A stretch of 37,117 nt of DNA from positions 1 to 37,117 of IMG/VR virus record IMGVR_UViG_3300046723_000207. One strand, 5' to 3'. This DNA is from a virus. Within the stretch, counting starts at the first letter, position 1. Each line of letters starts with the position of its first letter. Under the pieces are notes generated by a model. That model was not told where the DNA came from, did no database searches, and saw nothing but the letters and a program-made list of their open reading frames with translations. The translations under genes and the position numbers were made by a program. This document shows positions 2,255 through 37,034 of the stretch, piece by piece.

Positions 2255-2262
2255 CACACACC

Positions 2263-4546: not shown

Positions 4547-4565
4547 CAGCATGACGCCGTAATGA
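4537..4565 (+). promoter_or_regulatory. Putative promoter of the first RHH gene, leaderless type
   Basis: TTGACG (4537-4542) is followed after 17 bases by TAATGA (4560-4565), and the GTG start codon lies 6 bases further on at 4572. The -35 box thus begins 35 bases before the start codon, placing transcription start at about the start codon itself. The -10 match is weak. GACGCCG occurs twice (4539-4545 and 4553-4559), a possible RHH operator. Confidence 0.5.
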
Positions 4566-4571
4566 CAGTAC

Positions 4572-4739: not shown

Positions 4740-4963
4740 GCAAGCTGGACAAGCTATACGACCGGTACCACCACGATCCGGTGTTCGCGCGGTACGTCGA
4801 CATGATGCGCATGGCGATCGTGGAGCTGCACCTTGGCCCTGGCGAGATCCGTGACTGCGCCATGCTCGCGTCGTACATCGAAGTCGAGCGCAGGCCACCG
4901 GAGCCCATCCCGTACGACCCTGGCACCGGCATCCCGTCGGACCTCGGCAGGTACCAGCGATGA
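4736..4963 (+). CDS. Hypothetical protein
   Basis: 75 residues, ATG overlapping the RHH stop. A helical first half (KLDKLYDRYHHDPVFARYVDMMRMAIVELHLGPGEIRDCAMLASYIEVER) is followed by a Pro-rich tail. No known domain recognised. It is co-transcribed with the RHH gene. Confidence 0.6.
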   Translation: MSKLDKLYDRYHHDPVFARYVDMMRMAIVELHLGPGEIRDCAMLASYIEVERRPPEPIPYDPGTGIPSDLGRYQR

Positions 4964-5316
4964 GCGTACGGAAAGCACCGAACGACATTGGGGGCCGCGA
5001 CTGCGATTGCCCGGACATCGTGGTGTGGGGCGTGCTGACGTGGCTGCCGAAGAGCTGGGCGAACTACAGGTACGATCCGAACATGCACATCGGCGACATC
5101 TACACTAGCGAGGCAGCAGCGCATGGGAGCATCCCAGCGAGAGCCGGAGGACGACAGGTGCACGCCATCGACGCCCGCACGTACGAGTCAGGCGGCTGGA
5201 GGTACCGCGTGGTCGATATCAAGCCTAGGTGCGGGCACGAGCCGACCTTGCGCAACGTAAGGGAGATCGGACAGGCCGAGGTTGAGGTGGAGCTGAGCGA
5301 GGAGAAGCGGTCATGA
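4960..5316 (+). CDS. Hypothetical protein with few Cys pairs
   Basis: 118 residues, ATG overlapping the previous stop. It contains CDCPD near residue 15 and RCGHEP near residue 90, with WGVLTWLPKSWANYRYDPNMHIGD between. The C-terminus is acidic (EVEVELSEEKRS). No domain recognised. Metal binding is possible but weakly supported. Confidence 0.6.
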   Translation: MSVRKAPNDIGGRDCDCPDIVVWGVLTWLPKSWANYRYDPNMHIGDIYTSEAAAHGSIPARAGGRQVHAIDARTYESGGWRYRVVDIKPRCGHEPTLRNVREIGQAEVEVELSEEKRS

Positions 5317-5618
5317 TCAATGGCGAAGTGGCTAACGTGACGAAAGCTGTTCTTGCTAGCTTGCCCAGGATGCGACGAGAAAGTGCGGATCGCGCCGTGT
5401 CGCTCGCGAACGCGCTGGCTGCTTTCCTGGAAGCCAACGGTAATGGTGATGCCGCAGCCAGGGTCATATCGTCCGCGTGTGGCGTCCGCAACACGTACGC
5501 TGCAGCCTGCGAGGCGATGGCTCTTCTCGAGTGCGACCTGGGCCGGCTCATTCCCAATCAGATCAAGAGAGTCATCGGCGACAATGGTGACGAGGATTGC
5601 GACCGGAGCGAGCGATGA
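5313..5618 (+). CDS. Helical hypothetical protein
   Basis: 101 residues, ATG overlapping the previous stop. It is rich in Ala, Leu, Arg and Glu and looks entirely alpha-helical (AVSLANALAAFLEANGNGDAA...), with an acidic end (DNGDEDCDRSER). No family recognised. Confidence 0.6.
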   Translation: MINGEVANVTKAVLASLPRMRRESADRAVSLANALAAFLEANGNGDAAARVISSACGVRNTYAAACEAMALLECDLGRLIPNQIKRVIGDNGDEDCDRSER

Positions 5619-6244
5619 CGCCCGCCGAGTCCACCGCATGGCACTCCGCTCACCCCGGCGGCTCGTACGACCTGCTCCCATTCTTCGCCGACATCGCCCT
5701 CCCGCTCGTCCCGCACGGAGGCACCTACCTCGAGATCGGCAGCTTCTTCGGACGCAGCATCTCGTTCGTGGGCCTCGCTCGCCCCGACCTCAACCTCATC
5801 GCGATCGACCCGTGGACCAACGAGTGGGACGACGCGGGCGAGCGCCTCCCTGTCGGACCGGACCGCGTGCTGCGGGACAAGTACGGCGGGATGTTCGAGG
5901 CCTGGGCCGCCTGCTTGGATCTCTACGCTCCCGGGGTGCGCGAGCGCGTGCGGGTGATCCGTGCGCCGAGCTCTGAGGGGATGGCGCTGCTCGAGGGTGG
6001 CAGCGTGGACCTAGTGCTCGTTGACGGCGACCATTCGTTCGAGGGAGTTCGCGCGGACTGCGTTGAAGCGGTGCGCGTGTGCAAGCCCGGCGGGATCGTA
6101 TCGGCGCATGACTGCGGATGGTCGGGTCCGTGCTGGAAGGCAGTGATCGAGACAATGCCGGATGCTCGCTTTGCGCCGTGGCCGGAGCTGCGCGAGGGGT
6201 GGGAGCCTGGGTGCAGCAGCGTTATGTGGTGGAGGAAACCGTGA
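5615..6244 (+). CDS. Class I SAM-dependent methyltransferase (Methyltransf_24/CmcI-like)
   Basis: 209 residues, ATG 5615 in a 4-base overlap. Motif I is YLEIGSFFGRS (residues 38-48), the acidic loop is AIDPW (63-67), and VDLVLVDGDHSFEGVRAD (131-148) with CKPGGIVSAHDC is the typical post-II/III region. These enzymes methylate small molecules or sugars, often in glycan and antibiotic clusters. It shares E-x-G-x-x-FGRS and D-x-DH with the protein at 7587-8186, so the two are probably paralogues on either side of a glycosyltransferase gene. The acceptor is unknown. Confidence 0.85.
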   Translation: MTPAESTAWHSAHPGGSYDLLPFFADIALPLVPHGGTYLEIGSFFGRSISFVGLARPDLNLIAIDPWTNEWDDAGERLPVGPDRVLRDKYGGMFEAWAACLDLYAPGVRERVRVIRAPSSEGMALLEGGSVDLVLVDGDHSFEGVRADCVEAVRVCKPGGIVSAHDCGWSGPCWKAVIETMPDARFAPWPELREGWEPGCSSVMWWRKP

Positions 6245-6459
6245 GGCGCTTTCGTCTGGACATCTGCCTCGATGCGGCCACGATGCGATGCCCATGTGGC
6301 TCGTACCATGGGACCGACGACGACGGGTATGACGAGTGGAAGGTGACGCACGCCTCGCACACGGACGACGACGGCGCGTCTCGACTCGAAGTGAACGATC
6401 CGACGTCGTGGAGCAAGTGCTTTGCGGGACCGTGCCCGGAACCGACGGTGAAACCATGA
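6241..6459 (+). CDS. Small Cys-containing hypothetical protein
   Basis: 72 residues from GTG (GTGA overlap). MRCPCGSYHG near residue 15 and KCFAGPC near the end could form a zinc site. The middle is acidic (TDDDGYDEW, TDDDGAS). No known family; one of the interleaved mini-proteins. Confidence 0.5.
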   Translation: MRRFRLDICLDAATMRCPCGSYHGTDDDGYDEWKVTHASHTDDDGASRLEVNDPTSWSKCFAGPCPEPTVKP

Positions 6460-6680
6460 TCGGCAAGGCCGCACTCGACGCACTTGTGGCTCGACGTAAT
6501 CGCAACACTGACGAGACGCCCGAGGAAGCGCTCTCCGCGATCCTCGAAGTCCTCGGCCTAGTGGACTCCGGCAAGCTGGTGCTCGATGTCGTAGACGAAG
6601 CTGGAGTGCACATCGGACAGCGCGACAAGGACGGATACCACCCGAACGCCCACGACCCTAGCCGACGGGGGAAGGCGTGA
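6456..6680 (+). CDS. Hypothetical protein
   Basis: 74 residues, ATG overlapping the previous stop. A helix-rich start (ALDALVARRNRNTDETPEEALSAILEVLGLVDSGK) is followed by a short strand and a polar tail. Not recognised. It is retained because it fits the unbroken overlapping chain. Confidence 0.55.
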   Translation: MIGKAALDALVARRNRNTDETPEEALSAILEVLGLVDSGKLVLDVVDEAGVHIGQRDKDGYHPNAHDPSRRGKA

Positions 6681-6928
6681 GCCAAGTCGCCCTCATCCAT
6701 ACATGCGACAGCGGAGACGTGTGCCCGTGCACCGACAGCGCGGATTGCGAGTGCGTTTGGAACGAGCACGGTCGATGCGCCAAGTGCGGCACGCAGGAGT
6801 TCCTGATCCACCCGGAGACGGGGAAGCGATACACGCCGAGCAAAGCAATGCTCGATGCGAGGAGGGCGCCACCGCGAGACATGCCGCTGGATGGCTTCGT
6901 GTACCACGACGAGAAAGTGACCGAGTGA
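6677..6928 (+). CDS. Cys-rich putative zinc-binding small protein
   Basis: 83 residues from GTG 6677 (overlap). Within the first 45 residues there are eight Cys (CDSGDVCPCTDSADCECVWN then RCAKCG), enough for a double zinc ribbon. The remainder (LIHPETGKRYTPSKAMLDARR...) is polar. Function unknown. It immediately precedes a glycosyltransferase. Confidence 0.6.
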   Translation: MSQVALIHTCDSGDVCPCTDSADCECVWNEHGRCAKCGTQEFLIHPETGKRYTPSKAMLDARRAPPRDMPLDGFVYHDEKVTE

Positions 6929-7590
6929 ACCTCCTCGTCCTCTCCACCGGCTGGCGCTCCGACTCCGCCCTGCTCTGCAAGGCGAGCGTGGTACGCCAGA
7001 CCGGCCTCGACGCGATGGGCGTGACGTGGTCGCACACGTACATCGAAGCGAGCGAGCAGCACCCGGCGCGCACGAAGCTCGAGAACCTGGCCGATGCGAT
7101 TGCGCCGCTTGCGCCGGAGACGGTCGTGGCCCTTGTCGACGGTGACGATCATCTCGCGCACCGAGGCGCGCTGGCCCGTGTAATGCGCGAGCACGCGATG
7201 GGCTACTGGGTGACCTATGGGAGCTTCGTGCAGAGCGATAGCAAGCTCGGGTTCGCCGCGCCGTACGAGGCCCACGAGAGCTACCGGGCGACGGCCTGGA
7301 GATTGACCCACCTCAAGACATTCCGAGCTGGCCTCTTCAACAGGATCAAGCGCGAGGACCTGCAGTATGGCGGCGGGTGGATCGACCGCGGCGACGACCC
7401 TGCGTTCATGTGGCCGGTGGCCGAGATGGCCGGCAGGGACCGTGTCAAGTACCTGGAGGATGTGCTTTACGTTTACGACCACGCGGGCAGCTGGGAACAG
7501 AGCGTGAGCCGGGCCGAGCGCCAGCGCGAACTCGACATCGTGCAGCATGTGCGCGGGCTGCCGGCGTATCAGAGACTGGAGGCGCTATGA
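6925..7590 (+). CDS. GT-A fold glycosyltransferase (GT2-like)
   Basis: 221 residues from GTG 6925 (GTGA overlap). It starts with a strand NLLVLSTGW and has the metal/nucleotide-sugar site VALVDGDDHLAHRGAL (DGDD at 72-75), then THLKTFRAGLFNRI and DRGDDPAFMWPVAEMAG, the pattern of GT2-type acceptor loops, and ends with a typical VYDHAGSWEQS. It should transfer a sugar from a nucleotide donor to an unknown acceptor. It is shorter than many GT2 enzymes but covers the catalytic core. It is flanked by two paralogous methyltransferases. Confidence 0.8.
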   Translation: MNLLVLSTGWRSDSALLCKASVVRQTGLDAMGVTWSHTYIEASEQHPARTKLENLADAIAPLAPETVVALVDGDDHLAHRGALARVMREHAMGYWVTYGSFVQSDSKLGFAAPYEAHESYRATAWRLTHLKTFRAGLFNRIKREDLQYGGGWIDRGDDPAFMWPVAEMAGRDRVKYLEDVLYVYDHAGSWEQSVSRAERQRELDIVQHVRGLPAYQRLEAL

Positions 7591-8186
7591 CCGTCGTTTT
7601 GGACTCGGCAATCGTGGGCGCTGGCTGGCAGAACATCCCGGGCTTCTCCGACGATATCCTGCCGTTTTACCAGCAGCTGGCGCGGGACCTGCCGCAAGGC
7701 GCGCGCGTCGTCGAGGTCGGCGTGCTCTTCGGGCGCAGTATCGCGTGCATCGGCACATTGCGGCCAGACCTGGACTTGTGGGCGGTCGACACGTGGGAGC
7801 ACGGCGACCGTGAGGGCGAGATGGCGGCATACCAGGCGGCCTACGGCACGACGTGGGAGGCGTTCATCTGCGGCATGCGGGACAACGCGCCGTCCGTGTT
7901 CGACCGCCTGCACGTGGTGAGGGCGCTCAGTACGAGCGTGGTGCTGCCCATGGCGGACGTGGTGTTCCTCGATGCAGACCACGAGTACGATGGCATCAAG
8001 GCCGACATCGCGCACTGGGGGCCGATGGTGAAGCGCGGCGGCATCCTGGCAGGGCATGACTACCTCCTTCCCAATCACCCCGGTGTCGTCCAGGCGGTTG
8101 ACGAGGCGTTCGGGCCGCCGCCGCACACGATGGGGCCGGGCGACTGGACGAGCGTTTGGGTGGTACGTAACTGGTCGCTCCGATGA
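7587..8186 (+). CDS. Class I SAM-dependent methyltransferase
   Basis: 199 residues, ATG in a 4-base overlap with the glycosyltransferase. SAM motif VVEVGVLFGRS is at residues 41-51, AVDTW at 66-70, and VVFLDADHEYDGIKAD at 125-140, then GGILAGHDYL. It is similar in layout and motifs to the protein at 5615-6244 and probably methylates a sugar hydroxyl or a related small acceptor. Its position directly after the glycosyltransferase suggests successive action on one glycan. Confidence 0.85.
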   Translation: MTVVLDSAIVGAGWQNIPGFSDDILPFYQQLARDLPQGARVVEVGVLFGRSIACIGTLRPDLDLWAVDTWEHGDREGEMAAYQAAYGTTWEAFICGMRDNAPSVFDRLHVVRALSTSVVLPMADVVFLDADHEYDGIKADIAHWGPMVKRGGILAGHDYLLPNHPGVVQAVDEAFGPPPHTMGPGDWTSVWVVRNWSLR

Positions 8187-8446
8187 AGGTCGTCAAGGTG
8201 GAGGTCACGCGCGAGGACGGGACGGTGATGCGCCTCACCGGCAAAGAGGCCGTGCGTTGGGGAGAATTGATAGCTGGTCAAGCATCGTTCTGCTCCAATC
8301 ACGGCGTCCCGTTCCCATCGTTGGACTGGCAGATTACGCCGCCGCCCGCCTACGTCCCCGTCGCGTGGTGCGCCTACTGCGCCCCCGGTGGCCCGCACGT
8401 GCTGGGCGTGACGCCGTGCCCAATCTGCGCGAGGACGGAGCCGTGA
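8183..8446 (+). CDS. Small putative zinc-ribbon protein
   Basis: 87 residues, ATG overlapping the previous stop. The N-terminal half is beta/alpha (VKVEVTREDGTVMRLTGKEAVRWGELIA), and the C-terminal half has CAYC then CPIC about 20 residues later, a four-Cys zinc ribbon. Function unknown. Confidence 0.6.
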   Translation: MKVVKVEVTREDGTVMRLTGKEAVRWGELIAGQASFCSNHGVPFPSLDWQITPPPAYVPVAWCAYCAPGGPHVLGVTPCPICARTEP

Positions 8447-9177
8447 CTGGCCTCTGGCACACCCACGCCGCGAGTATCGACCCAGACCGCTTCCGCGCGG
8501 ACGGCATGTACCTCGGCTGCCAGACTGACTATCCGTATGCGGACATGGTGCGCTACTGCCGGCGCGAGCACCCGCGCCTGCTCGATGCGTTCACCGAGGA
8601 CGGCGCCCTTGGGTGCACCGTTGCGGTTGCGGCCGAGGGCAAGACCGTATCGCGTGACCTGCTCGACTCTGTGGTGGAGATTGGCTTCCTAGAGCGGCAC
8701 CTGGTGGGCCTGAGCTGCGCGCGCGTGCTGGACATTGGCGCCGGCTATGGGCGGTTCGCGCACCGGCTAACGGCATCGCACCCGGGGGCGTTCGTGTACT
8801 GCACGGACCGGTTCGCGGTGAGCCTGACGTGCTGCGAGCGGTACATGGCGCACCGGGGCGTCACGCGGGCCATGGTGGTGAGGCCGCAGCAGGTGGCGAG
8901 CATCACCGAGCGCATCGATGTGGCGGTGAACATCCACTCGTGGAGCGAGTGCACGCCCGAGGAGATCGAGCCGTGGCTGGAGACGCTGGACCAGCTCAAT
9001 GTGCCGTATTTGATGGTGGTGCCGCACACGCCGGACTTCGCATCGTGGACGGCCAACGGCGCGGCGGGGCCGAGCTTCCTGCCAGCCATCCACGCGCACG
9101 GCTATGTGCTCATCCGGCACTGGCGCGGGCCGGACTGCTGGCCGCGGGACTTCTGCTTGTTTGAGAGGGCTGCGTGA
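8443..9177 (+). CDS. SAM-dependent methyltransferase, putative sugar O-methyltransferase
   Basis: 244 residues from GTG 8443 (overlap); longer in-frame starts would run through the neighbouring gene. Motif I is VLDIGAGYGRF (95-105), then a CTDRF acidic strand and IDVAVNIHSWSECTPEEIEPWLE, as in putative sugar O-methyltransferases, and VLIRHWRGPDCWPRDFCLFER at the end. An N-terminal extension of about 90 residues is part of that family's architecture. Probably capping or modifying a glycan residue. Confidence 0.75.
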   Translation: MTGLWHTHAASIDPDRFRADGMYLGCQTDYPYADMVRYCRREHPRLLDAFTEDGALGCTVAVAAEGKTVSRDLLDSVVEIGFLERHLVGLSCARVLDIGAGYGRFAHRLTASHPGAFVYCTDRFAVSLTCCERYMAHRGVTRAMVVRPQQVASITERIDVAVNIHSWSECTPEEIEPWLETLDQLNVPYLMVVPHTPDFASWTANGAAGPSFLPAIHAHGYVLIRHWRGPDCWPRDFCLFERAA

Positions 9178-10007
9178 GGCCCGTAGTTGCTGTGGCTCAC
9201 GCGTCTTGGGCTGACGGACGCGCGGAAGGCTTGGCGCGCCTGCTGGCCCAGCTCGAGCCACAAGGCGTGAATCCGCACGTGCAGGTCAGCACCGAGCGCG
9301 AGCACGCGCAGGTGTGGGCGCTGCGTCTCTGGCGCTGGGCGGCAGAGCAAGATGCGCCGGCCATCCTGCTCAACGACGACGTGAGCGTCAGCCCCGAGCT
9401 CGTGGCCGCCGTGGACCGCATGACAGATGCGCTGCCTGACGAGCTCATCTCGCTTCACTGCCAGCTCCCCATCGCGAAGTCTCTGGCCGAGGCGGGCGTC
9501 CCGTACCTGCGCTGCTTCTGGCTATCCGGCCCCGGCTACGTCCTCGGGCGCGGCTGCGCGGCGAAGCTGGTGCGGTACTTCGAGACCATCCCGCAGCGCC
9601 TCAAGGACCTCTACAACGAGGATGGCTTTTCCCAGATGTGGGCGTGGTCCGTGCGCCGCCCGATCGTCCACTGCATCCCCGCACTGGTCCAGCACCACAC
9701 GGACATCCCAAGCACGCTCGGCTATGACAATCACACGCTGCGCGTGGCCACGGCCGACTGGACGCAGTACCCGGTGCCGGCGGACGCCACGGTGCGCGAG
9801 CCCATGCCGTTCTACGACAACCCGTGGATGGGGCGGCAAAACCTGCTCACGCTCGAGGCGGAGCGCGACTACTCGCAGGACCCCGTGCCCCCGCGGCGGT
9901 GCTGGTGGTGTCAGCAGCGGCCGGTGAAGTTCACGAGCGCGGCGACCGGGGCCGGCATGTGCGGCGAGTGCGTTACGGTCTGCGTGCAGGCGGCGATGCG
10001 GTCATGA
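9174..10007 (+). CDS. Glycosyltransferase with C-terminal zinc-ribbon extension
   Basis: 277 residues from GTG 9174. AILLNDDVSVSPELVAAVDRM (NDD at 67-69) is a DxD-like metal site, followed by LSGPGYVLGRGCA and YNEDGFSQMWAW, resembling phage GT-A enzymes of the GT2/GT25 type. From about residue 243 the protein adds CWWCQQRP...MCGECVTVC, a compact four-Cys ribbon not usual for these enzymes. This suggests fusion of one of the local zinc-ribbon mini-proteins to an enzyme. Donor and acceptor unknown. Confidence 0.7.
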   Translation: MRPVVAVAHASWADGRAEGLARLLAQLEPQGVNPHVQVSTEREHAQVWALRLWRWAAEQDAPAILLNDDVSVSPELVAAVDRMTDALPDELISLHCQLPIAKSLAEAGVPYLRCFWLSGPGYVLGRGCAAKLVRYFETIPQRLKDLYNEDGFSQMWAWSVRRPIVHCIPALVQHHTDIPSTLGYDNHTLRVATADWTQYPVPADATVREPMPFYDNPWMGRQNLLTLEAERDYSQDPVPPRRCWWCQQRPVKFTSAATGAGMCGECVTVCVQAAMRS

Positions 10008-11398: not shown

Positions 11399-11589
11399 TG
11401 GGCGCCTACGAGTATCTGCAGAGCCTTGACGACGAAGCGAAGCGAGACTGGGATCGCAGGTTCGCCTCGTGGGTGCACGAGCGTCGGCCGGACCTGGAGT
11501 TGAAGCCGGTCGCTAGGTCCGGAGCCTCACGATCCATGCTAATCTATGGGTGCAGCACCACTCAGACTCCGCTGAGGATCGGGCAATGA
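11398..11589 (+). CDS. Small hypothetical protein
   Basis: 63 residues; its ATG shares a base with the preceding TAA (TAATG). The N-terminus YEYLQSLDDEAKRDWDRRFASWVHERRPDL is a charged helix and the rest is unremarkable. The last third covers a possible promoter for the next gene. Confidence 0.5.
   Translation: MGAYEYLQSLDDEAKRDWDRRFASWVHERRPDLELKPVARSGASRSMLIYGCSTTQTPLRIGQ
11537..11545 (+). promoter_or_regulatory. Possible extended -10 element
   Basis: TGCTAATCT (11537-11545) matches TGn-TAnnnT with no good -35 box at the right distance. It could add transcription for the lipoprotein gene at 11586. Confidence 0.25.
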
Positions 11590-11840
11590 GATACGCCTGC
11601 CTGCTCTTCCTCTGCGCCTGCACCGTGCAGCCCCCGCCTCCGCCCGCCCCCGTAGCGGCACCCTCGCCCATCGCAGCCACATCGCCATCCGCCACCGTGC
11701 TCCTCATCCCCGAGGTGGTGGTCATGGGCGAGCGGCCGAAGCCGAAGCGGCACGAGGCCGAGCTCGAGACGGTGCACGAGCGCGTGTTCTGCGACCGGTG
11801 GCCGAGCGGCAGCGTCATCTGCGACAGCTACGAGTATTGA
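11586..11840 (+). CDS. Small Pro-rich lipoprotein
   Basis: 84 residues, ATG overlapping the previous stop, with GAGG 9 to 12 bases upstream. MRYACLLFLCAC has a very short lipoprotein signal with lipobox LCAC (Cys12). A Pro/Ala-rich linker (TVQPPPPPAPVAAPSP) follows, then a charged C-terminal domain with a Cys pair (VFCDRW...VICDSY). It should be lipidated and exported. The shape is like Rz1-type outer spanins or small myxobacterial lipoproteins. No holin, endolysin or inner spanin is next to it, so a lysis role is uncertain. Confidence 0.6.
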   Translation: MRYACLLFLCACTVQPPPPPAPVAAPSPIAATSPSATVLLIPEVVVMGERPKPKRHEAELETVHERVFCDRWPSGSVICDSYEY

Positions 11841-27282: not shown

Positions 27283-28963
27283 GGGCTCCTTCTCCTACGA
27301 GACGGCCATCACCGATGGCATGAGCGCCCCCGCGCGCGCGGAGGGGGATGCGCTCAAGCGACTGCAGGGCGAGATCAAGAGCACCGAGACGGCCATCCGC
27401 GCACTGCAGACGGAGCAACTCAATTACCAGCGCGGCGGGTTCAAGGGTGCCGCTGCGGACATCGGCCTCGAGATCCGCAAGCTGCGCCTGCCACTAGGGG
27501 ACCTCAAGGGCCAGTTTCGCGACCTCAAGGATGAGCAGAAGGAAAAGGCCGAGGGCGGGTTTTTCAGCCAGCTGACGGGCTCTCTCATCCCGCAGATCGC
27601 GCTTGGGGAGCTGGCGGCGGAGGGCGTGAAGAAGATCGCCGAGACGTTCTACGAGGTGGCCAAGGGCATTGGCGAGGCCACGGTCGAAGCGGGCAAGTTC
27701 GCCGTGGAGATGGCCGAGGCGCGCGAGAACTCGATCGGCGCGTACGAGGCGGTTCTTGAGAGCAAGCAGGCTGCCGAGCTTGCGTTCGACGCCTTCGAGA
27801 CCGTGGGTAAGGCGGCGCACCTCCCCGTCGACCGGGCGCAGGCCATCGCTCAGGACCTGATGCTCCAGGGCGAAGAGCATGTGGACATCATTGCCGGGGT
27901 GCTCACGGCTTCCGCGGACTTGACGCGAGTTGGCTTGGCTGCCGGCGCCGAGAAGTTCAAGAGCATCGTGGAGCGGTCCTTGACTGCCGGCGCATTCGTG
28001 CTCCCCAAGAAGCTCGCCGGCCTCGGGGTGCAGCTGCCGGACCTGTACGCCGACCTTGCGGCGAGGCTGCACACGAGCGTGGGGAACGTCAAGGCGCAGC
28101 TCAAGGCGGGCAAGATCGACGCGGAGGTGGGTATTCAGGCACTGACCGACGCCATCACTTCGGGCAAGGTTGGTGAGGCGGCGACCAGCAAGCTGACGTT
28201 CGGCGACATCGTTACGGACTTCAAGAACGACCTCGTGCAGCTCGTGGAGGGCGTGAACTTCCAGCCGCTGCTCACCGCGTTCTCGGACATCACGTACCTG
28301 GTGGAGGGTGCCGACGGGGACACCGGGGACCTCAAGACCACCATCCAGGGCGCATTCAACGCGGCCATCAACCTGACGGGTGAGGCGGTGGACGCGGTCA
28401 TTGGGTTCGGGCTTGAGGTGGAGATCCTTGGGCTCAAGGCGGAACTCTTCTGGAAGAAACACCGCAAGGGCGTGGACGACCTCATCGAGGGAGTGAAGGA
28501 CCTTGGGATCACGATCGAGCACTTGCTCGGCGTCGGCACGGGCGAGTTTGACTTCGAGAAGAAAGGGCGCGAGGCCATCCAGAACTTCGGCCGTTCCGCC
28601 CTCGACAGTGCCAAGGGCTTCCTAGGCGTCGGCGGCGAGACCCCGACGCAAGCCCCCGCGCACGCAGCTGGCGGCATGGTCGCTGAGCCAGCAGCCGGCG
28701 AGTATTTCGCATCGGTCAAGCCGGGCGAGCGCATAGTGCCGGCAGGGCGTGCCACCGATGACGTTGCGGGCTTGAGCCTGCCGGACTTCTCGCACGTGGC
28801 GTCGATGGGTGGCGGTGGCGGCAATCACGTGCACCCTGGCGCTATTCACGTCGAGATCCACGTCCCGGGCGGCACCACTGCCACGGCCAACGAGATGCAG
28901 GAGATCACGGAGCACGCGATGTACGACGTGCTTGAGCGCATCGTGGCGGAGCTGGGCGGGTAG
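27275..28963 (+). CDS. Tape measure protein
   Basis: 562 residues from GTG 27275 with GGGGGCGGA upstream. The helical N-terminus DALKRLQGEIKSTETAIRALQTEQLNYQ is followed by the hydrophobic membrane-active middle (LTGSLIPQIALGELAAEGVKKIAETFYEVAKGIGEATVEAGKFAVEMAEA) and a Gly-rich end. Its length sets tail length. It is short for this role, which predicts a short contractile tail (about 80 nm by the usual ~1.5 Angstrom per residue). Position and chaperone neighbour support the call. Confidence 0.82.
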   Translation: MAEGSFSYETAITDGMSAPARAEGDALKRLQGEIKSTETAIRALQTEQLNYQRGGFKGAAADIGLEIRKLRLPLGDLKGQFRDLKDEQKEKAEGGFFSQLTGSLIPQIALGELAAEGVKKIAETFYEVAKGIGEATVEAGKFAVEMAEARENSIGAYEAVLESKQAAELAFDAFETVGKAAHLPVDRAQAIAQDLMLQGEEHVDIIAGVLTASADLTRVGLAAGAEKFKSIVERSLTAGAFVLPKKLAGLGVQLPDLYADLAARLHTSVGNVKAQLKAGKIDAEVGIQALTDAITSGKVGEAATSKLTFGDIVTDFKNDLVQLVEGVNFQPLLTAFSDITYLVEGADGDTGDLKTTIQGAFNAAINLTGEAVDAVIGFGLEVEILGLKAELFWKKHRKGVDDLIEGVKDLGITIEHLLGVGTGEFDFEKKGREAIQNFGRSALDSAKGFLGVGGETPTQAPAHAAGGMVAEPAAGEYFASVKPGERIVPAGRATDDVAGLSLPDFSHVASMGGGGGNHVHPGAIHVEIHVPGGTTATANEMQEITEHAMYDVLERIVAELGG

Positions 28964-28965
28964 CC

Positions 28966-29598
28966 ATGGTGCAGCCCATCCTAAGCCCGTTCCTTTCCCC
29001 GCAGTCGTGGGACAGCATCACGGTGGGCGGCCTCACGTGGGGGGCGCCCACGGTGCCCATCTCGGGCCCATCCGTCACGCTCGATGGCTTCGCCACGCAG
29101 GGGGGCTCTATCGAGATAGAGGGGGCGGAGCGCTACTACTCGTGGGACCCGAAGCACGGCAAGGGACAGGAAGGGCACACGCCCACGTTCCAGGGCAACA
29201 AGCCCAAGCCGTTCCGACTCGTCTTCAAGATGTGGACGGACGCGCAATTCTTTGCGTGGCAGGTCTACCAGCTGGCCTTCCAGTACGACGGGACCAAGCT
29301 CGGCGTACCGCCCGTCCCAGTGTCGATCCAGCACCCCGCGCTGGCCATGCTCGGTATCAGCGCCATCTATTGCAACAGCATCGGCGAGGTGCGGAAGGCC
29401 AGCGACCAGCTGATGTTCACGAGCACCGTGACGGTCACCCAGTACCTTCCCCCTCCGCCACTCAACGTGGCCAGCACCCCAGTGGGCGCCATCACGATCC
29501 AGCCCATCAACATCTCCGGCAAGGCTCCCAATCCAGCGCTGACCGCCCTCGTGCAGCAGCGCGACGCCCTCGCGGCCCGAGTCGCGCAAGGTGGATGA
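28966..29598 (+). CDS. Probable baseplate/tail protein
   Basis: 210 residues from ATG 28966, two bases after the previous stop. Beta-rich with GFATQGGSIEIEGAERYYSWDPKHGKGQEG, FKMWTDAQFFAWQVYQLAFQYDG and ALAMLGISAIYCNSIGEVRKASDQLMFTSTVTVTQYLPPPPLNV. Located between tape measure and hub genes. The family is uncertain; gp53- or LysM-like baseplate components occupy this place in Mu-like phages. Confidence 0.6.
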   Translation: MVQPILSPFLSPQSWDSITVGGLTWGAPTVPISGPSVTLDGFATQGGSIEIEGAERYYSWDPKHGKGQEGHTPTFQGNKPKPFRLVFKMWTDAQFFAWQVYQLAFQYDGTKLGVPPVPVSIQHPALAMLGISAIYCNSIGEVRKASDQLMFTSTVTVTQYLPPPPLNVASTPVGAITIQPINISGKAPNPALTALVQQRDALAARVAQGG

Positions 29599-30260
29599 TG
29601 GGCCTCTACTACGCCGACTTGACCGGGGTGCCGATCTTCACGGCGGCCCTCACCATCCCCGCGGTGGGCATCTGGCACGCGGATGTGGTGTGCGATACGG
29701 CCATCGAGATCGTCGGCCCGCAAGTCTTGAACCTCGCAGGGAGCGCATGGGTATGCACGCCCATCCGCGACATCACATTCGCCGGCCGCCGTGAGGTACG
29801 CCTCGTGGGCGGTCAGGCTGGCTGGCGCAAGCTGGTACCCTTCAAGCAGTACCAAGCGCCGGGCGGTGTGCCGCTGGCGATGGTGCTCGGGGATGCCGCC
29901 GCCTTCGTGCAAGAGACCCCGCCTGTCGTCGACCCGAGTCTTTCGCCCACCGTTGGGCTTGGGTATGTGCGACAGGCGGGACTTGCTTCGCTCGTGCTCC
30001 AAGGACTTCTCGGTGACTCGTGGTACATGAGCGCTACGGGAGTTGTGCAAACTGTGCCTCGCTTGCCAACGCCCGTCGCCACGCCGTTCACGATGATGGA
30101 TGTCCACGGCGCTAGCGGTACGTACATCGTCGCCACGGAGTTCCCCGCTGACTGGGCGCCCGGGGCGGTGTTCGTCGCGCCCACGGCTGCAGGCACCGTC
30201 AACCGAGTGCGGCACGTGCTGCGTGAGAGCGACCTACGTACGGAGGTGCTTGTCGCATGA
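29595..30260 (+). CDS. Probable baseplate hub-region protein
   Basis: 221 residues; ATG 29595 (ATGA overlap) with a second ATG directly after. A beta-rich protein (YYADLTGVPIFTAALTIPAVGIWHADVVCDTAIEIVGPQV, RREVRLVGGQAGWRKLVPFKQYQAPGGVPLAMVLGDAAAFVQ). It precedes the spike-like gene, so a hub role is the positional inference; the sequence itself is not diagnostic. Confidence 0.5.
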   Translation: MMGLYYADLTGVPIFTAALTIPAVGIWHADVVCDTAIEIVGPQVLNLAGSAWVCTPIRDITFAGRREVRLVGGQAGWRKLVPFKQYQAPGGVPLAMVLGDAAAFVQETPPVVDPSLSPTVGLGYVRQAGLASLVLQGLLGDSWYMSATGVVQTVPRLPTPVATPFTMMDVHGASGTYIVATEFPADWAPGAVFVAPTAAGTVNRVRHVLRESDLRTEVLVA

Positions 30261-30844
30261 CCGCCACCGTCACCACCGATCCGGACCGCGCCAAGGCCAT
30301 CCTCGAGCGCCTGTTCGACCTCATGCTGCCCACGCTGGCCGCATATGTCACCTGGGAATACCAGGTCATCGACGCCACGCCGGGGCCGCCCGTGGTGCTG
30401 GACCTATTGCCCACCGGCACCACCAACCCTTTCGGCCCCCTCTCGCGGCTCACGCTCTGGCCGGGTCCTGACGGCGGTGTTGCGGTGCCCACGCCAGGCA
30501 AGTTGGTGCGGGTGCGGTTCGCCAACGGTGACCCGAGCAAGCCGGAGGTGTGCGGGCTGGACCCGACCGACACGCCGAGCATCGTGTACCAGTACGGGCT
30601 CCAAGTGAACGTGGGCAGCGCTGCGGCGACACCTCTTGCGCTCGCGATACCGGTGACCACTGCGTTCGCTGACATCGAGACATTCATTGCGGCACTGCAA
30701 ACGGTGCTGGCGCAGATGGTGGCCGGCTACGTCTCGCTGACCGCTCCGCAGATTGCGGCGTGGACAGCTGCAGCGAGCGCTCTCACTGCGGCTCTTGCGG
30801 CGCAAGCTCTAGCCACTCCTACCGTCATCGTGAAGGGGACGTGA
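30257..30844 (+). CDS. Probable baseplate spike/assembly protein (gp45/gpV-like)
   Basis: 195 residues, ATG overlapping the previous stop. TWEYQVIDATPGPPVVLDLLPTG, RLTLWPGPDGGVAVPTPGKLVRVRFANGDPSKPEVCGL has the look of the OB-fold that starts tail spikes, followed by a helical Ala-rich end. Mu-like phages encode the spike here. No clear needle motif is visible. Confidence 0.6.
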   Translation: MTATVTTDPDRAKAILERLFDLMLPTLAAYVTWEYQVIDATPGPPVVLDLLPTGTTNPFGPLSRLTLWPGPDGGVAVPTPGKLVRVRFANGDPSKPEVCGLDPTDTPSIVYQYGLQVNVGSAAATPLALAIPVTTAFADIETFIAALQTVLAQMVAGYVSLTAPQIAAWTAAASALTAALAAQALATPTVIVKGT

Positions 30845-31287
30845 TGAGCAACAACTTCCCTCAGAGCTCGCCCTTCGGAACAGACTTCTGGATCGGGGGC
30901 AACCCAAAAGGCATCCTCGATGGCGACCCTGGTATGCGTATGCAAACCGGCCGCGCCATGCTTGCCCAGCGCCTCCTCTGCTGCCTCTCCACCCCGCGAG
31001 GCAGCGTCATCGATTGCCCGAACGACTGCATTGACCTCCGCGACTCGCTCTCTGACGGCATGACGACGCAGCAGATCGCGGCTCTCGGGTCGGTCGTGCA
31101 GCAGGAGTGCCTCAAGGATCAGCAGGTGACCGCGTGCAACGTAACGGGTACCTTTAGCTTCACTACCAGCGTGCTGACGATGACGATCATGGTGACTAGC
31201 GGGGCGGGACCGTTCACCATGGTTTTGGCCGTTTCGCAAGTCACCGTCCAGCTACTCAACGCGAACCTGTCCACCCCAATCCAATGA
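30844..31287 (+). CDS. Baseplate wedge protein (gp25/gp46-like)
   Basis: 147 residues; ATG 30844 shares a base with the previous TGA. FWIGGNPKGILDGDPGMRMQTGRAMLAQRLLCCLSTPRGSVIDCPNDCIDLRD is the start of the gp25/lysozyme-like wedge family, whose products form the ring around the spike. The rest is beta-rich. Position between spike and baseplate J supports the call. Confidence 0.7.
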   Translation: MSNNFPQSSPFGTDFWIGGNPKGILDGDPGMRMQTGRAMLAQRLLCCLSTPRGSVIDCPNDCIDLRDSLSDGMTTQQIAALGSVVQQECLKDQQVTACNVTGTFSFTTSVLTMTIMVTSGAGPFTMVLAVSQVTVQLLNANLSTPIQ

Positions 31288-32558
31288 CCGTTCCCGTCCC
31301 CCTCTCGCAGCTCGTAGCGCCGGCCACTCCTGACGAGGTGCTTAGCCTCGAGCTGGCCATTGCCACGGCGCTTGGCCTGAGCGTGACCTCGTGGGAGCCG
31401 CTCGACCCGAGCCGCACGATCTACCAGGGGCAGGCGCAGATCATCTCGCTGTACGCCGGCACGGTGAACCTGATCGCGCAGGGCGGGTACGCCAACTACG
31501 CGGCGCAGATGGTGGATGGCAATGGCGCGCCCATCACCACGTGGATGGATCTGCTTACGCCGAACCTCTACAACACTCTGCGTTTCCAGGCGTCCTTCGC
31601 TGCGGGCCCAGTGCCGTTCACGAACGGGAACGCTACCACGTACAGCTACACGCCCAATAACCCGCTGCACTTCCAGTACCCGACGAGCGGCGGGGCTACG
31701 TACACGAGCGTGGGCAGCGGCAGCCTCCCTGGCAACAGCAGCGGCACGGTCAACGTGGTGGCGGATGCGGGCTTCTCCGGGAGCGCCGGCAACGCGGCGA
31801 CCGGCACCATCCTGCAGCTCATCACGCCGTTGGCTGGCGTCACCATCCAGGCACTCACACTGCCGCTCGTGGGTGCGCCGCTCGAGACGAATCAAGCGCT
31901 GCTACTCCGCTCACTCAACATGCTCGGCTCGCTCAGCGGGCAGCTCCTCCAAGTGCAGCAGGGCACTACGCCCGTGCCGCCCAACCCGGCGGCGCCCACC
32001 ACGGCGTACGACTACGTGGCCACGAGCATTCCAACGCAGACGAGCGGCCTGAGCTCGGCGGTGTGGCCGTACTACGTCACGGCGAAGATCACCAAGAGCC
32101 AGACCGTGGGCAACACCATCACGGGCGTGGTCAACGTGTACCTGGCCAACGCGGCGGGCGCACCCACCGCTGGGGATGTGGCCGTAGCGGCTGCGGCCAT
32201 CTCGGCGCTCGTGTCTGGCCAGTGTATCACCACCATCGTGCAGGCGGCTGGCACCGTCACCGTGACCGTGGCGTACACCATCTACTACCGGCGCAGCAGC
32301 GGGTACACGGCCACGCAGGCCCAGGCCGCGATCCTGCTCGCCCTCACCGGCTACTTCTCAGCCTTCCCCATCGGCGGCATCACCACCACCACGAGCGGCA
32401 TCATGCCGTACACCGAGGTAGAAGACGTGATCTTCGATGCGCTCCCGGGCGCAGTGGACCTCGTGCTGACGCTCAACGGCGGCAAGGCGAACATCGCGAT
32501 CGGCAGCGGCAATGTGGCCGTGCTCGGAGTCGTCACCCCAGGCGTGGTGTTCGTCTGA
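31284..32558 (+). CDS. Baseplate J-like protein
   Basis: 424 residues, ATG overlapping the previous stop. LVAPATPDEVLSLELAIATALGLSVTSWEPLDPSRTIYQGQAQIISLYAGTVNLIAQGGY is the typical N-terminus, followed by strand-rich repeats (SVGSGSLPGNSSGTVNVVADAGFSGSAGN) and a C-terminal domain ending in VLGVVTPGVVFV. It forms the outer baseplate wedge. Length and order match. Confidence 0.85.
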   Translation: MTVPVPLSQLVAPATPDEVLSLELAIATALGLSVTSWEPLDPSRTIYQGQAQIISLYAGTVNLIAQGGYANYAAQMVDGNGAPITTWMDLLTPNLYNTLRFQASFAAGPVPFTNGNATTYSYTPNNPLHFQYPTSGGATYTSVGSGSLPGNSSGTVNVVADAGFSGSAGNAATGTILQLITPLAGVTIQALTLPLVGAPLETNQALLLRSLNMLGSLSGQLLQVQQGTTPVPPNPAAPTTAYDYVATSIPTQTSGLSSAVWPYYVTAKITKSQTVGNTITGVVNVYLANAAGAPTAGDVAVAAAAISALVSGQCITTIVQAAGTVTVTVAYTIYYRRSSGYTATQAQAAILLALTGYFSAFPIGGITTTTSGIMPYTEVEDVIFDALPGAVDLVLTLNGGKANIAIGSGNVAVLGVVTPGVVFV

Positions 32559-33685
32559 TGTCCGGCGCCGGCCCGGTCATCACGCCCACTCCGCTCACGG
32601 AGTTCGTGGACGCGTGCGACGCCATCAGCCCCACGTACCTCAACGGGCCGGTGTTCGCGAAGTACCGCATGGCGATGAACGTGCCGGTGGACGCGCTTGC
32701 CGACGGGGCGCTCTACGCGGTCGAGTCACGCTTCCCCAGCCTTGCCCCCTCCGACGCGTTCATCTGGCTGTCGCTCGACCGGACCATCTCGCAGGGCTTT
32801 CAGGAAGGGCAGGCCAGCTACATCTCGCGCCTGCAGCAGTGGCTCGCGGTGCTGCCGTACGAGGGGCACCCCACGGGCATGCTGCTCGGGATGCTCGCGT
32901 ACGTGCTCCCCACGTCGGTCATGGTCCGAACGGTGGACAACGCGGGCAACTGGTACACGTACGCCGCTGGGGCGAACCCCATCCCGCTGCCGAAGCCCAG
33001 CACGGACCCGACCACCTACCCGGCCGGGTATCCAACGGGCTTCGTGAACGTTCCGGCGCCCACGCCAAGCCTCGCGCAGGGTAACTGGCGGTGGGACTCG
33101 GCGGGGCAGCCGTTCTGGTACGTGCGGCCGGCGTGGTGGCGGCTATGGCCCATCCTGTACTCCCAGGCCGGCCCATTCACCGCCCCCACCGCCACGTGGG
33201 CGCCTCACACCGGGACCATCACCGTGGGCGTCACGGGAGCGTCCGGAGGGCACCCGAGCTTCTACAGCGGTACTGGCGGGGCAGGGAGCGCCGGCACCGA
33301 GTTCGCCTGGGACGACGGCACGTGCTGGGACTGGGCCGGTACGAGCAAGGCCCTCTCAGCGGGTCAGGCCACCGCCATCACGTCGATCGCCAAGCAGTGG
33401 AAGGGGGCGAATGTGTGGGTTGTCTACATGATCGTCTCGTACGACGCGACCATGTTTGACCCGGCGCAGGCGTTCGGGTCGGCCAAGCTCCCGGACGGGA
33501 CGTGGGGCACGTGGGCGAAGGTGACGGCAGCCACGGCCACGGTGCCGTCGTACTACTCGGCGTCGCGTCCCGGGTCGAACGTCTGCAGCTTCCTGCCGGG
33601 CAGCGGCGAGGCCGGGGTGGGCGGTCAGTGGGCTGGCAACGGACGCGTCTACTCGTCGCTCACAACCGCGCTAAACGTGTCATAG
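32558..33685 (+). CDS. Tail protein I / DUF2313-like baseplate protein with extra domain
   Basis: 375 residues; the ATG shares a base with the previous TGA. After a short start it has LDRTISQGFQEGQASYISRLQQWLAVLPYEGHPTGMLLGMLAYVLPTSVMVRTVDNAGNWYTY, then a domain with WRLWPILYSQAGPFTAPTATWAP and a C-terminal WAGNGRVYSSLT. Position after J fits the baseplate protein that attaches fibres; the family match is moderate. Confidence 0.6.
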   Translation: MSGAGPVITPTPLTEFVDACDAISPTYLNGPVFAKYRMAMNVPVDALADGALYAVESRFPSLAPSDAFIWLSLDRTISQGFQEGQASYISRLQQWLAVLPYEGHPTGMLLGMLAYVLPTSVMVRTVDNAGNWYTYAAGANPIPLPKPSTDPTTYPAGYPTGFVNVPAPTPSLAQGNWRWDSAGQPFWYVRPAWWRLWPILYSQAGPFTAPTATWAPHTGTITVGVTGASGGHPSFYSGTGGAGSAGTEFAWDDGTCWDWAGTSKALSAGQATAITSIAKQWKGANVWVVYMIVSYDATMFDPAQAFGSAKLPDGTWGTWAKVTAATATVPSYYSASRPGSNVCSFLPGSGEAGVGGQWAGNGRVYSSLTTALNVS

Positions 33686-33697
33686 TGAGGGTGGCGC

Positions 33698-34870
33698 ATG
33701 GCTGAGATCATCCAAGGGAACGCCACCACGCAATCGCCGACTACCGGCGCCAAGACGCGCGTGGCCATCTCGGCGACCTCGAACGCCACGCCGGTGCAGG
33801 TCACGACGAAGACGGTGCACGGTTTCTTCACCGGCGATTCGGTGGAGATCGAGGGAACCGGCATCGTGACGGTGGACGGGCTATTTATCGTAACCGTCAT
33901 CGACACGCTAAACTTCACGCTGAACGGGTCGACGGCGCCCGGATCCACGTCATCGAGCGGGTACTGCGTCGACTACGCCGTGCAACCGGCGCTTCAGATT
34001 CCGGACCCTGGCGACACGGCCAGCATGGTCACGATGGGGCCCATCATCCAGGGGCTCCTCGACAACACGCCGTCAGCGTACCGGCGGGCGGGCAAGTACC
34101 GGCTGTACAACTACCTCGCTGGGCTCTTGCCGGCGTCGCCCGCCACCGGCGCGGACCCTTACTCTGCTTCCTGGTCCGCCACCGCGGTCTTCTCGGCAGG
34201 CGACAACTTCCTCAACCTGTCAGGCGTGTCCCTCGACTTCCTGGCCAACGGCTTTCCGGGCAGCGCCGGTGGACCCGTGGTGGTGAATGGCACTGACGTG
34301 CTTGAGGTGAGCTACGAGTTTTCCGTCCAGCTCGTGTCCAGCGTAGCGGTGAACACGACGTTTCACCTTGTGGCGTTCCCAGGGAAGCAAGCGGACTTTC
34401 ACCAGGTCACGCTCACGTCGGCCACCACCCCGGTGCAGGTCACTACGTCCACCGCGCACGGGCTGTCCACGAACGACTTCGCAGGGATCTTCAACTGCGG
34501 GTCCAACTCGCTAGACAACCTCTGGAAGATCACTCGGATCGACAACTTCAACTACACGTTGAACGGGTCGACATCTCCGGGCGTGACCACTGCTGGTGCC
34601 ACGGCCGTCTCGATCCCGTCAGCCAACAGAGCCAACCTGCGGCCGTCCAACTGGCCGCTGATCGGAGTACCCACGGCAGGAATCTACACGCCGATGGTAG
34701 TGCGCGGGATCCTGGGCAGCCCACTCATTCCGCTCAGCAACGCGCCCTTCTCGCCGTCCGCTCTCTACTGGTTTGGGCTCTACACCACGCCCGATGACAA
34801 CACGCACCTGAGCCAAGCTAACCTCATAGGACCGGCCATGTGCACCGTGCGACACTTCAGGGTGAACTGA
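33698..34870 (+). CDS. Tail fibre/receptor-binding-type protein with duplicated domain
   Basis: 390 residues from ATG 33698 with GAGGGTGG upstream. Two copies of a beta module, with TPVQVTT-TxHG and YTLNGST-type ends (residues about 27-85 and 247-308), resemble the FCCH-like phage module that reads V-TT-x-HGL and F-L-x-GS. Between them is a Gly/Thr-rich beta domain. Suggests a structural or receptor-binding protein. Its end is convergent with the minus-strand lipoprotein gene. Confidence 0.6.
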   Translation: MAEIIQGNATTQSPTTGAKTRVAISATSNATPVQVTTKTVHGFFTGDSVEIEGTGIVTVDGLFIVTVIDTLNFTLNGSTAPGSTSSSGYCVDYAVQPALQIPDPGDTASMVTMGPIIQGLLDNTPSAYRRAGKYRLYNYLAGLLPASPATGADPYSASWSATAVFSAGDNFLNLSGVSLDFLANGFPGSAGGPVVVNGTDVLEVSYEFSVQLVSSVAVNTTFHLVAFPGKQADFHQVTLTSATTPVQVTTSTAHGLSTNDFAGIFNCGSNSLDNLWKITRIDNFNYTLNGSTSPGVTTAGATAVSIPSANRANLRPSNWPLIGVPTAGIYTPMVVRGILGSPLIPLSNAPFSPSALYWFGLYTTPDDNTHLSQANLIGPAMCTVRHFRVN

Positions 34871-34872
34871 TG

Positions 34873-35292
34873 CTAGTGACACACTCCGCCGGGCATGCAG
34901 GTCTGCGACCCGTAGCATGGGGCGCAAATGGCGCCGCCGGTGCCGCAAGCATCGGACGTATCCCCGGACCTGCACAAGCCCGCCAGCGTGCAGCATCCGG
35001 AGTTGCAGGCCGCCATGCAAAGCTCGAGCGTCGTCGGAGGCTCTGCAACGGCATCAAAGCTGGCTTCGTGCTGGCCCGAGTCAGGAACGGCCTCGATGCC
35101 GGCCTCGTGCTGAACGGTCACCACGTGCGCGACCTCGGCCCCTGCATCGACCGCAGCGTCCTCGCCAGGCGCGTCCACGGCAGCCTCCACCACGATGCCA
35201 GGGTCCGCCACCACGGCCCCCTCCACCGCCGCCCCCTCAGTGAACGGAACGCCCCCGCATCCAGACAGCAGCACCACAACGATCGCTCTCAT
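34873..35292 (-). CDS. Cys-rich lipoprotein, probable phage moron (host-type gene)
   Basis: 139 residues on the minus strand, the only clear gene on it. MRAIVVVLLSGCGG is a short lipoprotein signal with lipobox LSGC (Cys12). An acidic, Ala/Val/Asp-rich linker follows, then a Cys-rich module CMAACNSGCCTLAGLCRSG...ACGTGGAICAPCYGSQTCMPGGVC with ten Cys. This pattern is characteristic of many Myxococcota exported lipoproteins. The start is at 35292, 7 bases after a TATACT box. It likely coats the host surface after lysogeny or infection (superinfection exclusion or other fitness role is a guess). Confidence 0.72.
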   Translation of the reverse strand: MRAIVVVLLSGCGGVPFTEGAAVEGAVVADPGIVVEAAVDAPGEDAAVDAGAEVAHVVTVQHEAGIEAVPDSGQHEASFDAVAEPPTTLELCMAACNSGCCTLAGLCRSGDTSDACGTGGAICAPCYGSQTCMPGGVCH

Positions 35293-35299
35293 GGCATAC

Positions 35300-35328
35300 A
35301 GTATATGTCATCGTATGCGGTGGCGCAA
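35300..35328 (-). promoter_or_regulatory. Minus-strand promoter of the lipoprotein gene
   Basis: Read on the minus strand: TTGCGC (35328-35323), 17-base spacer, TATACT (35305-35300), then 7 bases to the ATG beginning at 35292. The -35 starts 36 bases before the start codon, so the message should be leaderless. This is the best -10 in the window and overlaps the next fibre gene's start (ATG 35328). Confidence 0.6.
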
Positions 35329-37034
35329 TGAGCTTCCTAGGGGTCCTGCTCGTCAAGAACTGCTTCGACCAGAACGGCGCCATTATGCCGGCCCGGCCGG
35401 CCTTCCAGATCACGGGAAGCGGCGTGGTGGCCTCGGACAGCTCGTCACTGGGCGGGACTGGGGCGACGATCTACACGATTACGTCGTCGGCGGTGACGTG
35501 GCAGAACGACCTCGTCAATAGCAGCGGCACCCACCAGTACGTTTCGGCGCTGTCGTTCTCGAACTCGGCAGCGGGCGGGGCCATCGCCATCAACGGGACC
35601 GGCACGTCGCTAGCGTGGGCGAGCAACAACGCGGCCCCGCTGATCTTCCAGTCGGCCGCCTCTGGCAACGGCGCCCCGACCCTCATCGCGGCGCAGTCGT
35701 CGAACGGCGCGAATGGCAACGGCGGCATTCTGCGGCTGGCTGGCGGTGACCTCAACGGCTCGGGCCGGCGCGGTTCGGTGCAGCTTTGCCTCGGCTTCGC
35801 GTCGTCGGTGCAGATGGTAGAGGTGGCCGAGCCGGTTGCGGGGCAGCGCGTTGTTGCGCTTTGCAGAGCATCAGCCATCACCAGCACGCAGCTGCCTGCC
35901 AACTCCGGAGACGGCGTGGTGTACCTGGCCGTAGCGGCATCGGTCCCAACGGTCGCACCGGTGAGCGGAATCACGATCTACAACGCCGGAGGCCGTCTCG
36001 GGATGTGGTCTACCGGTGTCACCTTCAATGCAGGCGTAGCCGCCGTCCTCATCAGCCACTCCTCCACTGCTTCGGCAACAGGCGGCAACTTCACCATCGC
36101 CGCCCAGAGCGGCGCGACCAATGGCGGCAACCTGCTGCTCCAGCCTGGGGCCGGGAACGCAGCATCTACCGGCGGCTACGTGCGGATGGTGTCCGGTGAT
36201 CTGTCGTCCGTCACGCTGCAGCTAGGGGGCCTGTCGTCCGATCAGATCATTCTCGGCGACCAAACCGCGTCAGTCTACTTGGAGGCCACCTCCAGCGTGA
36301 TCGCGTGGGGCAAGAGCGTCTCTGCTCCGCAGATCTCGCAGAACATCCAGGACGCTGGCAGCAACCCGCAGAGCATCACGGTCGCTCCTCAGGCACCAAA
36401 TGCCGGGGCGGGTAGCATGGCGACGGGGACGCCAGGTTCTTTCATCATAAACGTAGCGGCGCCGGTGAGCACTGGGGCGGAATCTGGCCTCACTGTTCAG
36501 AGGGCAGGCGTGTTCCAGGCACAGCTAATGGTAGGCGCCACCGTGTTCCTCTACATGGGGAACGCGCTCGCACCGGACGGCACCAATTACGCTCTGGCAA
36601 ACTTCAGCACCAGCACATTCGTGAACGCGAAGGCCACGATAGTCCTAGGTGTCAACGGCAGCGCCGCGAGCGGAGTGATCAACGCAAGCGGGTGGACCAT
36701 AGGATCCGGCACCGCGATCAATGGCGGAGGTACCGGAGTCATCGGTATCGCGAACGCTTCTGTTGCCCCCACCACAAACCCGACCAGTTCGGGTGTTCTC
36801 TACGCATCTGGTGGCGCCGGGAAGTGGCGCGGCTCTAGCGGCACGGTAACGACATTCGCAGCGGCGGACCTCGACGGCTTCATGGCTACTGCAGGCAAAG
36901 GACACTGCCCTTGCTGCGGCACCGACTTCGCGCATGAGTGGGCGAACGAGAAGTACGGGTCGCTCACGGTGTGCATGCGGTGCCTCACTGACGAACTCGG
37001 CGATCGTGAGTGGATCGTCAGGAAGGCTGCGTAG
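35328..37034 (+). CDS. Tail fibre protein with C-terminal zinc ribbon
   Basis: 568 residues from ATG 35328. Thr/Ala/Gly/Ser-rich repeating beta structure (LIFQSAASGNGAPTLIAAQSSNGANGNGGILRLAGGDL, FTIAAQSGATNGGNLLLQPGAGNAASTGGYVRMVSGDL) is typical of trimeric fibres or spikes. The last ~45 residues, from about 525, are quite different: HCPCCGTDFAHEW...LTVCMRCLTDELG, a four- to five-Cys zinc ribbon. The ribbon could hold the fibre tip or bind a partner. Function inferred from composition and position. Confidence 0.6.
   Translation: MSFLGVLLVKNCFDQNGAIMPARPAFQITGSGVVASDSSSLGGTGATIYTITSSAVTWQNDLVNSSGTHQYVSALSFSNSAAGGAIAINGTGTSLAWASNNAAPLIFQSAASGNGAPTLIAAQSSNGANGNGGILRLAGGDLNGSGRRGSVQLCLGFASSVQMVEVAEPVAGQRVVALCRASAITSTQLPANSGDGVVYLAVAASVPTVAPVSGITIYNAGGRLGMWSTGVTFNAGVAAVLISHSSTASATGGNFTIAAQSGATNGGNLLLQPGAGNAASTGGYVRMVSGDLSSVTLQLGGLSSDQIILGDQTASVYLEATSSVIAWGKSVSAPQISQNIQDAGSNPQSITVAPQAPNAGAGSMATGTPGSFIINVAAPVSTGAESGLTVQRAGVFQAQLMVGATVFLYMGNALAPDGTNYALANFSTSTFVNAKATIVLGVNGSAASGVINASGWTIGSGTAINGGGTGVIGIANASVAPTTNPTSSGVLYASGGAGKWRGSSGTVTTFAAADLDGFMATAGKGHCPCCGTDFAHEWANEKYGSLTVCMRCLTDELGDREWIVRKAA

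Follow-up and report, generated by a model that had tools for sequence, protein, structure and literature searches.

A reversed gene for a predicted lipoprotein with a Myxococcota-type cysteine-rich module between two tail-fibre genes of an uncultured phage

What is a single minus-strand gene doing between two tail-fibre genes in a stretch of phage DNA that is otherwise read from the plus strand? The question is raised by the record IMGVR_UViG_3300046723_000207, analysed here as one window of 37,117 bp, which is linear according to the IMG/VR classification and is probably a fragment. Codon-model gene calling placed all genes of the window on the plus strand except one at 34873–35292 (minus strand; ATG 35290–35292, TAG 34873–34875), in agreement with the first-pass annotation, which had described it as the sole opposed gene in a co-oriented 37-kb block. 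Its product is a predicted lipoprotein of 139 aa. The gene lies 2 bp from that of a tail-fibre or baseplate-associated protein (33698–34870, plus strand; weak short-tail-fibre match) and 35 bp from the start of a tail-fibre-like gene (35328–37034, plus strand), with which it is arranged head-to-head; the interval 34873–35328 comprises the lipoprotein gene, the gap between the two diverging genes and the initial base of the next gene's ATG. The downstream fibre has a Cys-rich, zinc-ribbon-like C-terminus (36890–37034, HCPCCGTDF...CMRC), which is odd for a tail fibre. Elsewhere in the window, positions 764–10007 (plus strand) hold a sugar/surface-modification block encoding an NAD epimerase, a DegT aminotransferase, several methyltransferases and a glycosyltransferase-like protein; this block is mostly kept in a related phage genome (G001, see below).

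The length of the minus-strand ORF proves nothing, since the GC-rich window contains 149 ORFs of at least 100 aa, mostly shadow ORFs, and the phage codon model gave the gene a weak score. Rather, we judge the gene to be real because its Cys-rich module matches a profile HMM trained on 130 bacterial modules, with the window sequence left out (35.7 bits, E=2.3e-10). The runner-up frame of the window scored 7.1 bits with the same HMM, and the top score among 100 random controls of the same dinucleotide make-up was 14.5 bits. Similarly, the Cys/Gly pattern CC-x3-G-x-C-x8-CG-x-GG-x2-C-x2-C, written as an 81-base degenerate DNA pattern for scanning, returned one exact match in the window and none in 100 shuffles. 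The empty corresponding site in G001 further backs the reality of the gene. A competing reading takes the plus-strand ORF at 34870–35331 as the true gene, coupled to both neighbours, as it exactly overlaps the upstream stop and downstream start codons. However, the product of that ORF has the Arg/His-rich composition of a shadow frame and no match in relatives (its GC3 is 0.70, versus 0.79 in the lipoprotein frame), whereas the minus-strand ORF fits a bacterial family; we regard the plus-strand reading as close to refuted.

The predicted protein has three parts. A signal peptide of 11 residues (MRAIVVVLLSG, 35260–35292, minus strand, from the translation) leads into the lipobox LSGC, in which Cys12 (codon 35257–35259, minus strand) is the predicted lipidated residue, giving the mature N-terminus CGGVPFT. 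This is followed by an acidic linker of 76 residues rich in Ala, Val, Gly and Pro (35029–35256, minus strand), which, counted over residues 13–90, lacks Lys and Arg and abounds in Asp and Glu, and, at the C-terminus, by a module in which 10 of the 51 residues are Cys (34876–35028, minus strand), with the frame C-x3-C-x2-GCC-x3-G-x-C-x8-CGTGG-x2-C-x2-C-x5-C-x5-C. The lipobox claimed by the first-pass annotation is borne out as a prediction from sequence, as MRAIVVVLLSGC conforms to the rule [LVI][ASTVI][GAS]C with a preceding positive charge, supplied by one Arg in the n-region. The signal is short: the Cys of a lipoprotein signal usually falls at about residue 15–35 (PROSITE rule), whereas here it is residue 12, and the gene has no standard in-frame start codon upstream. 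A Cys at residue 12 is also seen in further lipoprotein candidates from this group of phages (window 11586 and G001rc 33421), the former being a second possible small lipoprotein of the window (11586–11840, plus strand; MRYACLLFLCAC, Pro-rich, 84 aa).

In Myxococcus xanthus, a Lys at position +2 of the mature lipoprotein directs it to the inner membrane, and an Ala at +7 to the extracellular matrix (PMC3222651). The mature sequence CGGVPFT has neither, suggesting under these rules that the outer membrane would be the default destination. Lipidation and disulfide formation are likewise predicted from the residues present. An AlphaFold2 model of the module, built with 22 bacterial relatives, reached a mean pLDDT of 84 and folds into a small structure with little regular secondary structure, as would be expected for a disulfide-rich domain. 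Foldseek searches with this model returned nothing in BFVD and only chance matches in the PDB (E about 6), which, for a model of 51 residues, is weak evidence for a new fold.

Searches of the protein and the module against Pfam, NCBIfam, PHROGs, PADLOC and PDB sequences identified no known family. A pattern scan of approximately 85,000 species genomes, in contrast to these databases, returned at least 119 loci, and among the matches listed 99 carried the titles of Myxococcota taxa (Myxococcaceae, Archangium, Archangiaceae, Cystobacterineae, Polyangiaceae and Myxococcales), 15 were from 'Deltaproteobacteria' MAGs and 5 were from other sources; 'Deltaproteobacteria' is the former taxonomic home of the myxobacteria. 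Sampling genomes by phylum with the module HMM at a cut-off of E<=1e-9 found the module in 21/146 genomes of an Archangium MAG group (Myxococcota), some with more than 20 matches, in 10/141 genomes of a 'Deltaproteobacteria' MAG group, with few copies each, and in 1/151 genomes of a Chloroflexota control, whose sole positive is the MAG that served as its centre. That MAG, a Thermomicrobiales assembly labelled Chloroflexota (L093), encodes typical module proteins that are found in none of the 150 other genomes of the phylum, possibly reflecting a contaminating contig or transfer. At the other extreme, one Archangium MAG (L118, genome G009) yielded 108 module matches at E<=0.001. Sequence searches point to a large, unnamed and uncharacterised family that has neither a Pfam nor an NCBIfam model and appears almost confined to myxobacteria.

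The resemblance of the C-terminal module to Myxococcota lipoproteins, proposed on first reading of the sequence, is supported by the HMM match and by this taxon distribution. In the phage protein and the Myxococcota proteins, Cys and Gly follow one common frame, whose spacing agrees over the initial two thirds of the module, at 35–54 % identity, and the Myxococcota proteins are also mostly lipoproteins: by a single regular expression, a lipobox is present in 63 of the 110 N-terminally complete bacterial module proteins among the matches listed, against 4.6 % of all ORFs at these loci. The bacterial proteins differ in that they are mostly longer, with the module often near the N-terminus or repeated, whereas the phage protein has one C-terminal copy behind a long linker. 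Neither the whole lipoprotein nor the downstream fibre returned relatives in viral contigs, and the module was not found in Myxococcus phage Mx4. A short Cys pattern picked out 67 loci in viral contigs as candidate copies, which we rejected as their frames lack the full Cys frame and the best profile score was 21 bits. Among phages, the window gene is the only convincing carrier that we found of this large and uncharacterised module family of myxobacterial lipoproteins.

By portal protein, the nearest isolated phage is Mx4 (33 %, E=1e-60), which shares the window's gene order for portal, capsid, sheath and baseplate at identities of 23–34 % to the window proteins; the sheath protein matches Thermus/Meiothermus phages as well as Mx4. 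A much closer relative is the record IMGVR_UViG_3300044796_000261 (G001), which is 59,962 bp long with a 127-bp terminal repeat, is collinear with the window and shares 77 % identity in the portal and 85 % in the major capsid protein. G001, whose genome looks complete, also encodes a transposase of the ISXO2/IS1595 type and a protein resembling TnpB/OrfB (Cas12f-like) (L008:18280-19110 and L008:15417-16535), possibly representing mobile elements within the phage genome. A search of 195 Myxococcota-group genomes for a related prophage returned nothing beyond one weak portal match. As the module is of Myxococcota type and, separately, Mx4 is the nearest isolate, the host is likely to be a myxobacterium. 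These two independent lines tie an uncultured lineage of contractile-tailed phages to myxobacterial hosts, and the suggestion that the gene is a clue to the host has held up, its best matches lying in Myxococcota rather than in unrelated phyla.

Comparison of the relatives suggests how the gene came to lie where it does. The upstream fibre has an ortholog in G001 (G001rc 27876–28850; 34 % over 257 aa, E=1e-30) with a common C-terminus, while the downstream fibre matches its counterpart (G001rc 28852–31392) only over the N-terminal ~55 aa (38 % over 58 aa, E=2e-5). These orthologs adjoin in G001, 1 bp apart, and the junction that is a single base there corresponds to a segment of 457 bp in the window (34871–35327), which we therefore interpret as an insertion, i.e. 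a moron, a term used here for an inserted extra gene and nothing more. A more distant relative (L200) also lacks a lipoprotein gene after its ortholog of the upstream fibre gene. With one phage carrying the gene and two without it, these sequences suggest a gain in the lineage of the window, although its loss in the lineages of the relatives may be an alternative history. A host is the probable source of the gene, and we are highly confident that it is a Myxococcota-type lipoprotein moron.

Turning to expression, the first-pass annotation had pointed to a near-consensus −10 element 7 bases before the ATG, and such an element is indeed present: TATACT (35300–35305, minus strand) lies within CATATACTGTATG (35295–35307), which contains the palindrome ATACTGTAT. 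This hexamer occurs once in the whole window, in which sequences matching TATAAT at five or more of six positions number 11 on both strands together, and the chance of such a match at any of five leaderless spacings is about 0.0007 in window DNA. The possible −35 element, TTGCGC (35323–35328, minus strand; spacer of 17), matches at 3/6 positions, falls below the scanner threshold and overlaps both the RBS region GGTGGCGCA and the first base of the plus-strand fibre gene; GGTGGCGCA also precedes the gene at 33698. Together, the −35/−10 pair scores 8/12, and a stricter scan (at least 9/12) detected no promoter for the lipoprotein gene. A promoter is plausible given TATACT at a leaderless spacing, but the −35 match is poor and the strict scan was negative; a leaderless transcript from TATACT is suggested by the consensus match only. 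A scan for terminators of the T-run type, to which the method is confined, found none between 33000 and 35600.

The gene had been described at the outset as a classic moron expressed in lysogens. The insertion bears out the first half of that description; expression in lysogens is not supported, in view of the weak promoter, the missing terminator and the result of searches for an integrase, which was found neither among the scanned genes of the window (weak evidence, given that the window is a probable fragment) nor among the tested genes of G001. Were the phage temperate, a prophage-made lipoprotein might alter the host surface and thereby affect adhesion or social and predatory behaviour, or exclude other phages. 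Genes expressed by lysogens usually stand in reverse orientation and have a promoter region of their own, the Ltp lipoprotein of Streptococcus thermophilus is made from a prophage (PMC3952083), and a weak repressor-like HTH protein of 65 aa is encoded among the tested genes of G001. Nevertheless, no clear repressor was seen among the same scanned and tested genes, the Myxococcota-group genomes yielded only the one weak portal match and wild-type Mx4 is considered virulent (PMC6070905), so that we find lysogenic conversion doubtful. By analogy, a lytic-cycle function of the T5 Llp kind would suit the layout better, and we consider lytic exclusion at least as likely as expression in the lysogen.

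Alternatively, the gene may be a passenger, a host lipoprotein gene recently acquired by recombination that is expressed or not and has no selected role in the phage. Its absence from both relatives examined would fit, as would its weak fit to phage codon use and the availability of myxobacterial genomes with up to about 100 module copies as a source. Decay is argued against by the compact fit of the gene between its neighbours, its open frame, the intact set of module Cys and a −10 element exactly placed for the start codon, and overall we consider a passenger unlikely. Small phage lipoproteins are often o-spanins, and with its lipobox the protein might instead be an o-spanin-like outer-membrane component of lysis, or else a virion-associated factor. 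However, downstream of its tail genes, where lysis functions would be expected, G001 has an overlapping pair of small lipoprotein genes of its own (G001rc 33008–33424 and 33421–33666; L007-L009), making a spanin role unlikely, and the gene in the window runs against late transcription; any lytic envelope role of this kind seems very improbable.

Our best explanation, held tentatively and by analogy, is that the lipoprotein acts in superinfection exclusion or receptor masking. Starting from what can be read from the sequence (that the gene exists and is inserted, that its module belongs to a family distributed in Myxococcota, and that the layout is divergent and head-to-head), we propose that a myxobacterial phage with a contractile tail, related to Mx4, carries a host-type lipoprotein gene in reverse between two tail-fibre genes, and that a promoter in the 35-bp divergent gap, whose activity is predicted from its sequence, would drive a possibly leaderless mRNA. 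The product would be exported, lipidated at Cys12 and set in the outer membrane, where the acidic linker would keep the disulfide-rich module off the membrane. The module could then bind or mask the surface structure recognised by the neighbouring fibre, so that infected cells, and the debris that they leave on lysis, would no longer capture phages, and linkage to the fibre gene would keep blocker and receptor-binding protein together. Against masking, the module itself does not point to receptor binding, as no function is known for its bacterial relatives; the poor −35 element, the lack of a detected terminator and the short signal peptide also count against it. A broader reading, which we consider improbable, is that the phage uses a myxobacteria-specific, disulfide-rich surface module as a weapon or disguise, its added copy changing how the infected cell is recognised in phage adsorption or kin contact. 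If true, this would provide a first handle on the function of a large host module family with ~100 copies in some hosts.

Among known systems, Ltp of S. thermophilus phage TP-J34 is also a phage moron for an exported lipoprotein. What distinguishes Ltp, as far as the sequence of the window shows, is its place within a lysogeny module, its production from the prophage and its target, the tape measure protein of an incoming phage (PMC3952083). Receptor masking is favoured because the positions of the lipoprotein start (35292) and the fibre start (35328) match the layout of the lytic phage T5, in which llp, the gene for the exclusion lipoprotein, and oad, the receptor-binding gene, diverge head-to-head from promoters that lie between them; linkage of blocker and receptor-binding protein would likewise be that of llp and oad. 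In the window, the receptor role of the fibre encoded from 35328 is assumed. T5 Llp acts from the periplasmic side to block FhuA (PMC9586334), has one disulfide where the window protein has 10 Cys, and is encoded by a gene of 234 bp, the window protein being larger at 139 aa. No similarity to known exclusion lipoproteins or phage families was detected in PHROGs, PADLOC, Pfam, NCBIfam or phage records, and by sequence the window protein does not belong to the Llp family. Exclusion lipoproteins need not be homologous, however, since Llp of phage BF23, which is unrelated to T5 Llp, has the same gene place and the same role, directed at BtuB (PMC4728585); Rtp45 has the same role toward LptDE (PMC12685063). 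Like the window protein, all three are small phage lipoproteins, and if a T5-like layout means a T5-like role, the function of the module would be testable by a simple adsorption assay.
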